Origin: Candidatus Saccharimonadota bacterium
GTDB taxonomy: Bacteria; Patescibacteriota; Saccharimonadia; Saccharimonadales; Saccharimonadaceae
DNA: 51,205 nucleotides
Direction: 5' to 3'
Assembly: GCA_026395405.1 (NCBI GenBank)
Contig: JAPLYU010000001.1
Coordinates: 645,024-696,228, forward strand
The notes beneath the pieces are model-generated. The model saw nothing but the letters and a program-made list of their open reading frames with translations. It did not search any database and was not told the DNA's origin. The stretch's first letter is position 1. Each line of letters opens with the position of its first letter. Positions 43,869 through 51,205 of this stretch are shown here, piece by piece. The translations under genes were made by a program, and so were the position numbers.

Positions 43869-46994
<3,126 letters not shown>

Positions 46995-50496: not shown

Positions 50497-50532
50497 TGGT
50501 GGAGCGATTCAGACTTTCGCCTGATTCGCCCC
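50497..50532 (-). ncRNA. tRNA-Ala-like minihelix with G3:U70 and ACCA end
   Basis: 36 nt on the minus strand: acceptor-like stem GGGGCGA/UCGCUCC (7 bp, third pair G:U), an A:A mismatch, a 6-bp stem UCAGGC/GUCUGA closed by a GAAA tetraloop, and an encoded ACCA. It starts 3 nt behind the CCA of tRNA-Ala. Compared with that tRNA, pairs 6 and 7 differ on both sides (A:U to G:C, U:A to A:U) while G3:U70, the alanine identity pair, is kept. No U-run follows, so it is not a terminator. An unreported function is inferred, not shown. Confidence 0.62.
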
Positions 50533-50535
50533 ATG

Positions 50536-50613
50536 TGGTGGAGCATGTCGGATTCGAACCGACGACCCCCTGCTTGCAAAGCAGGTGCTCTAAACCAACT
50601 GAGCTAATGCCCC
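50536..50613 (-). tRNA. tRNA-Ala (TGC)
   Basis: 78 nt including encoded CCA. Acceptor GGGGCAU/AUGCUCC with G3:U70, anticodon loop TTTGCAA giving TGC, T-arm GTCGG TTCGAAT CCGAC. A promoter (50634-50662) lies just upstream. Confidence 0.97.
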
Positions 50614-50633: not shown

Positions 50634-50662
50634 ATTTTACCGTAGATGTATCATCCTCGCAA
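50634..50662 (-). promoter_or_regulatory. Promoter of the tRNA-Ala/minihelix/tRNA-Ile unit
   Basis: -35 TTGCGA (50657-50662), 17-nt spacer, -10 TAAAAT (50634-50639) on the minus strand. Confidence 0.72.
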
Positions 50663-50679: not shown

Positions 50680-50916
50680 ATGGCATACGAATTCAGTTTC
50701 GCATCATTTTTTATAGGCTTTATTATTGTCGCCGTCGGTGCTGCATTTATGCTTTGGCACCGGGTAATTGCTGATAATTTAGGTTCTGGCGTATCAAGTT
50801 ATGACCGATTCAAGTTTTGGGCCCTAATAACCTGCGTTGTTGGTTTTGTTGTAATGTTGAATTTGCATGCATACATTCTAGGTAATCTGATAATATCTAT
50901 ATTCCACCCAGCCTAA
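50680..50916 (+). CDS. Small two-helix membrane protein
   Basis: 78 aa; two hydrophobic segments (about 8-26 and 44-73). No motif recognised. TATAGT ends 8 nt before the ATG and no Shine-Dalgarno is present, fitting a leaderless message. It lies in the 16S-tRNA gap on the opposite strand to the rRNA. Confidence 0.72.
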   Translation: MAYEFSFASFFIGFIIVAVGAAFMLWHRVIADNLGSGVSSYDRFKFWALITCVVGFVVMLNLHAYILGNLIISIFHPA

Positions 50917-51136: not shown

Positions 51137-51205
51137 AGAAAGGAGGTAATCCATCCGCACCTTCCGGTACGGATACCTTGTTACGACTTAACCCCAATCA
51201 TCCCC
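51137..51205 (-). rRNA. rrs: 16S ribosomal RNA, 3' end only
   Basis: The plus strand AAGGAGGTAATCCATCCGCA is the reverse complement of the 16S 3' end, including the anti-Shine-Dalgarno CCUCC. The rest of 16S lies beyond the window. Confidence 0.95.

Follow-up and report, generated by a model that had tools for sequence, protein, structure and literature searches.

Minihelices (half-tRNAs) have so far been known as substrates made in the laboratory and as hypothetical forerunners of tRNA. Among natural RNAs, tmRNA is charged with alanine through G3:U70, and the non-proteinogenic tRNA-Gly isoacceptors of Staphylococcus aureus, with changed EF-Tu contacts, serve as donors for FemXAB. In alanyl-tRNA synthetase (AlaRS), the C-Ala module binds the elbow of the tRNA. 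Some Saccharibacteria (TM7), the group considered here, are human oral bacteria. Synthetic minihelix-Ala and microhelix-Ala go back to Francklyn and Schimmel 1989 (as cited in the excerpt of PMC9976931), and a natural AlaRS without C-Ala charges microhelix-Ala as well as full tRNA in a G3:U70-dependent manner, according to the excerpted text of PMC10036535, which describes no natural minihelix substrate. On the acceptor side, MprF accepts minihelix-Ala and the identity element of FemX is G2-C71 (both as reviewed in the excerpt of PMC4052509), and a cyclodipeptide synthase (CDPS) accepts Ala-microhelix (PMC13062777). No paper on a natural minihelix gene was found in the open-access literature, and a large-scale survey of structured RNAs from human microbiomes makes no mention of TM7 in its main text.

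In the window, i.e. the whole analysed stretch of 51,205 nucleotides, the 16S-23S spacer carries on its minus strand a tRNA-Ala gene followed, 3 nt (CAT) after the encoded CCA, by a 36-nt hairpin (Table 1). From 5' to 3' it reads GGGGCGA, A, TCAGGC, GAAA, GTCTGA, A, TCGCTCC and ACCA, forming a 7-bp stem with G3:U70, an A:A mismatch, a 6-bp inner stem with one G:U pair, a GAAA loop and the ACCA end, and all the parts listed in the preliminary description were found on the sequence. Its predicted fold reaches -22.2 kcal/mol, compared with -7.8 +/- 2.2 for shuffled sequences (z -6.6; 0/200 shuffles equal). Neither ARAGORN nor Rfam gave a tRNA match at 50497-50532, no family of Rfam 15 reached its gathering score over the hairpin, and as a single 36-nt hairpin without cloverleaf it falls outside the tRNA family (RF00005). 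Relative to the acceptor of the neighbouring tRNA-Ala, pair 6 is changed from A:U to G:C and pair 7 from U:A to A:U, and the two double changes reported earlier are thus present on both strands. The same description had read the hairpin as a copy of the acceptor and T half of a tRNA; this holds for the acceptor part, whereas the inner part, 6 bp and a tetraloop without T-loop sequence, is not a copy of the T-arm.

Table 1. Features of the 16S-23S spacer and its surroundings in the window
Feature	Position	Strand	Evidence
Likely promoter of the tRNA-Ala/minihelix unit (TTGCGA, 17 nt, TAAAAT)	50634..50662	-	consensus scan, recurrence
tRNA-Ala(TGC) with encoded CCA, directly upstream of the minihelix	50536..50613	-	ARAGORN; Rfam RF00005
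Predicted Ala-minihelix RNA (36 nt)	50497..50532	-	sequence; fold z -6.6; covariation in relatives
tRNA-Ile(GAT), the gene that follows the minihelix	50269..50345	-	ARAGORN
Broken tRNA-Ile copy, first	50470-50380	-	
Broken tRNA-Ile copy, second	50230-50060	-	
Gene of a 78-aa membrane protein	50680-50916	+	
Hairpin with T-rich tail	50967-50928	-	
16S rRNA 3' end (context)	51139..51205	-	Rfam RF00177
23S rRNA (context)	43871..46991	-	Rfam RF02541

With synthetic minihelix-Ala, which is charged by AlaRS, the Saccharibacterial hairpin shares G3:U70, A73 and CCA on a short hairpin; it differs in being encoded in a genome, whereas the synthetic ones are laboratory fragments, and in having an inner stem of its own and an unpaired joint, with a tetraloop where the T-arm would be. 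The tRNA-Gly isoacceptors of S. aureus are likewise non-translational RNAs, feeding peptidoglycan ligases (a role only proposed for the minihelix), but they are full tRNAs, whereas the minihelix has no D-arm, anticodon or T-loop. tmRNA is similarly a conserved small RNA with a G3:U70 alanine end, but the minihelix has no mRNA part and no T-loop or D-loop. Viral tRNA-like structures and the thrS operator are also tRNA mimics recognised by a synthetase, yet they form part of longer RNAs, whereas the minihelix has a small gene to itself.

When 60 relatives were searched at the DNA level with tRNA-Ala and the hairpin together as query, spacers were recovered from many congeneric genomes and from one genome of another genus, most of them with the 36-nt hairpin in place. 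A covariance model (R1), built from eleven gap-free aligned spacer hairpins, matched 10 of 28 genomes of the genus and 90 of 295 genomes of the window's family, in 24 of 61 genera (E-values 2e-15 to 4e-3, which are rough for a home-made model). Two of the 90 genomes (G190, G301) were judged to be chance on reading, leaving about 88 carriers, and the true carrier fraction is higher, since genomes without a match often have no assembled spacer. Nearly every genome with a match contained a single copy and no dispersed copies, and a mobile or REP-type hairpin was therefore rejected. The covariance search proposed in the preliminary description also extended beyond the family, to two other families of the same order (f31, in G422; f22, in G056) and to a second order of the class (G695, G748 and G751), where all copies have G3:U70 and stand behind tRNA-Ile, in G748 between tRNA-Ile and tRNA-Ala. 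No convincing match was obtained in other classes of the phylum. In a pattern scan of a named collection, which required CTCC, 74 stretches were recovered, about 70 of them from Saccharibacteria or similar unnamed bins, among them the complete genomes TM7i and GW2011_GWC2_44_17 and the oral taxa 348, 350 and 352. The TM7i copy, in genome CP075337, is locus L173, and HMT-352 is represented by a single-cell genome, with the copy at L116. Matches in Sphingobium (L152), Croceibacterium (L178), Myxococcales (L138) and Acidimicrobiales (L128) were chance matches in GC-rich genes; L103, L104, G602, G702 and four viral contigs were also removed as chance matches, and 77-nt model matches in genus g2 (E about 0.006) were tRNA-Ala itself. 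Judged from this distribution, the minihelix RNA probably dates back to the origin of the class and has been lost several times since; the lineages with a loss include G025, G006, G130 and most of genus g2. In G025, the assembled spacer has adjacent tRNA-Ala and tRNA-Ile without minihelix, and many genomes with FemAB ligases also have none. Degenerate versions were noted in G006 (L018/L197; A3:U70, first pair lost, poor fold) and G130 (L198; a G:C form without the usual 3' end), which are likely pseudogenes on the way out. Because of these absences and degenerate versions, the minihelix appears dispensable in some lineages.

Among the eleven aligned hairpins, 6 of 13 pairs showed double compensatory changes, 97.9% of cells were paired, and G3:U70 was present in 11/11. 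Across 68 family sequences (59 distinct), 95% of cells were paired and all 59 distinct sequences had G3:U70; covariation amounted to 0.403, whereas shuffles gave 0.176 and slid pairings no more than 0.070. With the outgroups included, G1:C72, G2:C71, G3:U70 and ACCA were invariant in 67/67 distinct sequences, all of which thus contain the acceptor identity set of tRNA-Ala (G3:U70, A73, CCA), and G4:C69 was altered once, to G:U, although the model behind some of these G3:U70 cases had itself been trained on G3:U70 and the counts, drawn from related sequences, are not independent events. Variation was seen in pairs 5, 6 and 7, the inner stem and the loop (UUCG, GAAA, GCAA, UUAC and others). One mutation suffices to turn a wobble pair into G:C; the inner G13:U20 has become G:C in 10 of 57 sequences, and G3:U70 never. 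The alanine identity set is what selection keeps, and the divergence across two orders is a stronger argument for this than the sequence counts. In a model-free census of any CCA-ended hairpin within 300 nt behind tRNA-Ala, at loci fetched by tRNA and spacer similarity, 13 clean hairpins were found, all with G3:U70, and A3:U70 occurred in G006 only. The earlier statement that the pairing is kept rather than drifting was borne out in the relatives far beyond chance, since G3:U70 is conserved and pairs 5-7 and the inner stem show compensatory changes.

The hairpin was also compared with the tRNA-Ala(TGC) of the same locus at 55 loci, where pairs 1-3 agreed in 55/55 and pair 4 in all but one. The seven acceptor pairs were identical in 0/55, which rules out recent copying or gene conversion, and together with the covariation this led to the rejection of a tRNA pseudogene or fragment.

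The majority of copies lie behind tRNA-Ala in the 16S-23S spacer. In genus g36, however, the minihelix lies outside the rDNA, some copies following tRNA-Ile and others standing alone. In nine of the stand-alone copies in g36, a perfect TATAAT stands exactly 11 nt upstream of G1, the stand-alone copies at L118, L140 and L159 have a five-of-six or similar match at the same place, and directly behind nearly all stand-alone copies there is a terminator-like stem with a T-run (promoters and terminators being called from sequence alone). In an oral genome (L053), the hairpin is retained in a spacer without recognisable tRNA-Ala, and in G003 it is intact behind an insertion of about 170 nt that separates it from tRNA-Ala. 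For the window, the consensus scan on which the likely promoter partly depends found sites no more frequently than in shuffles. A promoter-like pair TTGC(G/A)...TA(A/G)AAT precedes tRNA-Ala closely within the spacer both in the window and in many relatives, and the longer arrangement TTGC...TA(A/G)AAT...AGTTC is repeated in many relatives with a similar spacing to tRNA-Ala.

The AlaRS of Saccharibacteria is short, with frames of 578-715 aa in 30 genomes, and ends just after the editing domain in 12/12 sequences read (L239-L250, NF002436 type). A Pfam scan of three Saccharibacterial AlaRS revealed the catalytic and editing domains and no DHHA1/C-Ala, so recognition of the acceptor alone is plausible for enzymes lacking this elbow-binding domain; the short AlaRS also occurs in non-carriers. 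Tupanvirus mini-AlaRS and AlaRS without C-Ala read only the acceptor stem, and the Tupanvirus enzyme, unlike that of Saccharibacteria, is also missing the editing domain (both according to the excerpted text of PMC10036535).

The conserved family, the fixed AlaRS identity elements, the covariation, the free-standing units and the domain content of AlaRS are, taken together, very well established. The hairpin keeps exactly the part of the tRNA that AlaRS reads and is, for this reason, probably a natural alanine-charged half-tRNA. In the proposed mechanism, the minihelix would be co-transcribed with tRNA-Ala inside the rRNA spacer, read out downstream of tRNA-Ile or driven by a promoter of its own; from the transcript, a hairpin of about 36 nt with an ACCA end would be released. 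The cell's AlaRS, without C-Ala, would then add alanine, for which G3:U70, A73 and CCA should suffice. Having no anticodon, D-arm or T-loop, the resulting Ala-minihelix would be unable to decode and could constitute a separate source of alanine for aminoacyl-tRNA-dependent transferases, first of all Fem-type peptidoglycan ligases. We give this whole chain, from the gene to an alanyl-minihelix as an alanine donor outside the ribosome, a probability of about 0.5; its expression, processing, charging and acceptor enzyme are inferred. It is tentatively suggested that this is the first natural, genome-encoded minihelix, a half-tRNA of about 36 nt that is aminoacylated in the cell, serves as an extra-ribosomal alanine donor and is kept throughout the class of the Saccharibacteria.

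Fem ligases as the specific users of the Ala-minihelix are a more doubtful element. The FemX element G2-C71 matches a minihelix pair that is invariant across the 67 sequences. FemAB (PF02388) was detected in 273/295 family genomes, mostly in several copies, and in 86/88 minihelix carriers, which fits the donor role and is no proof of it; this co-occurrence was rejected as a discriminator because FemAB is too common (p 0.03, uncorrected for kinship and completeness), and one carrier that is 99% complete (G099) gave no PF02388 match. If the donor reading is true, the hairpin would be the first natural minihelix, a gene kept in a living lineage with its synthetase recognition elements under strict selection, and metabolic service by acceptor-stem RNAs alone would become directly testable. 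It would also indicate an as yet unrecognised step of alanine transfer in Saccharibacteria, which are ultra-small and depend on a host.

The main rival to the donor role is a decoy or sensor, in which the charged or chargeable hairpin would bind AlaRS, a CCA-handling enzyme or another tRNA-binding protein without being consumed as a donor, thereby tuning the supply of Ala-tRNA or sensing alanine. Fixed AlaRS identity elements would suit any ligand of AlaRS, co-transcription with tRNA-Ala would keep both RNAs in step, and there is a precedent for a synthetase-controlling tRNA mimic in the thrS operator (PMC9976931). However, a decoy requires neither the perfect ACCA end seen in 67/67 sequences nor an own promoter, as seen in one genus, and no link to the AlaRS gene was seen, making this explanation rather unlikely.

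The position of most copies between tRNA-Ala and the next tRNA, and the resemblance of a hairpin plus CCA to an RNase P substrate, could suggest an element that separates the spacer tRNAs and guides RNase P and 3' processing. This is largely refuted by the copies that form single genes away from the rDNA and have a promoter and a terminator of their own, and is quite improbable given also that some copies are the last gene ahead of a terminator, that the L053 copy persists in a spacer without tRNA-Ala, that G3:U70 has no known role in processing and that G025 manages adjacent tRNA-Ala and tRNA-Ile without the hairpin. A translation-linked alanine acceptor, for example one releasing stalled peptides as a minimal relative of the tmRNA alanine end, is favoured by the charging of tmRNA, too, with alanine through G3:U70. 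However, tmRNA itself was found in 29/30 tested genomes, carriers and non-carriers alike, leaving nothing to replace, and no T-loop or SmpB-type site is visible in the minihelix, so that such a role seems very improbable; replacement of tmRNA was rejected on the same count, and the minihelix is not itself a tmRNA, being only 36 nt long in genomes with a separate tmRNA gene. A tRNA remnant or functionless mobile hairpin, the plain alternative in the preliminary description, is favoured by the real tRNA-Ile fragments and palindromic repeats in the same spacer and is refuted by the class-wide conservation, single copies, covariation and invariant identity elements, with the promoter- and terminator-bearing copies outside the rDNA and the L053 copy further excluding a decay product.

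Several other elements were observed near the minihelix. At nine loci (L025, L060, L063, L068, L079, L083, L085, L093 and L105), another hairpin lies between tRNA-Ala and the minihelix, with a stem of about 7 bp directly after tRNA-Ala and the form TGG-loop-CCA, of which the layout is shared and the sequence is not fixed; it may represent a second small RNA or a processing element. Many genomes of genus g36 have, a short distance beyond the terminator of the minihelix, a gene for a conserved protein of about 85 aa (MDKDKIIAAIKEKV...; L070, L071, L081, L086, L090 and L096). The 78-aa membrane protein of the window is encoded inside the 16S-23S spacer, antisense to the rRNA and divergent from tRNA-Ala; it has two likely membrane segments and the motif IADNLxSGVxSYD, belongs to no Pfam or NCBIfam family, and in many genera its gene keeps its place next to the tRNA/minihelix cluster. 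A link to the minihelix was rejected, because the gene, present in 125/295 family genomes, occurs in 65 non-carriers as well as in 60/88 carriers and is absent in 28 carriers, probably reflecting synteny. The intact tRNA-Ile has a broken copy on either side; each broken copy contains a palindromic insert (CCTGCCCG...CAGGCGGG type), and the second additionally has a GAGCAGTGCAAGTCTGCACTGC hairpin. Finally, the interval from the 16S rRNA to the 78-aa gene contains a strong hairpin (AAATACCTCTGA...TCAGAGGTATTT) that has a T-rich tail and may end 16S transcription ahead of tRNA-Ala.
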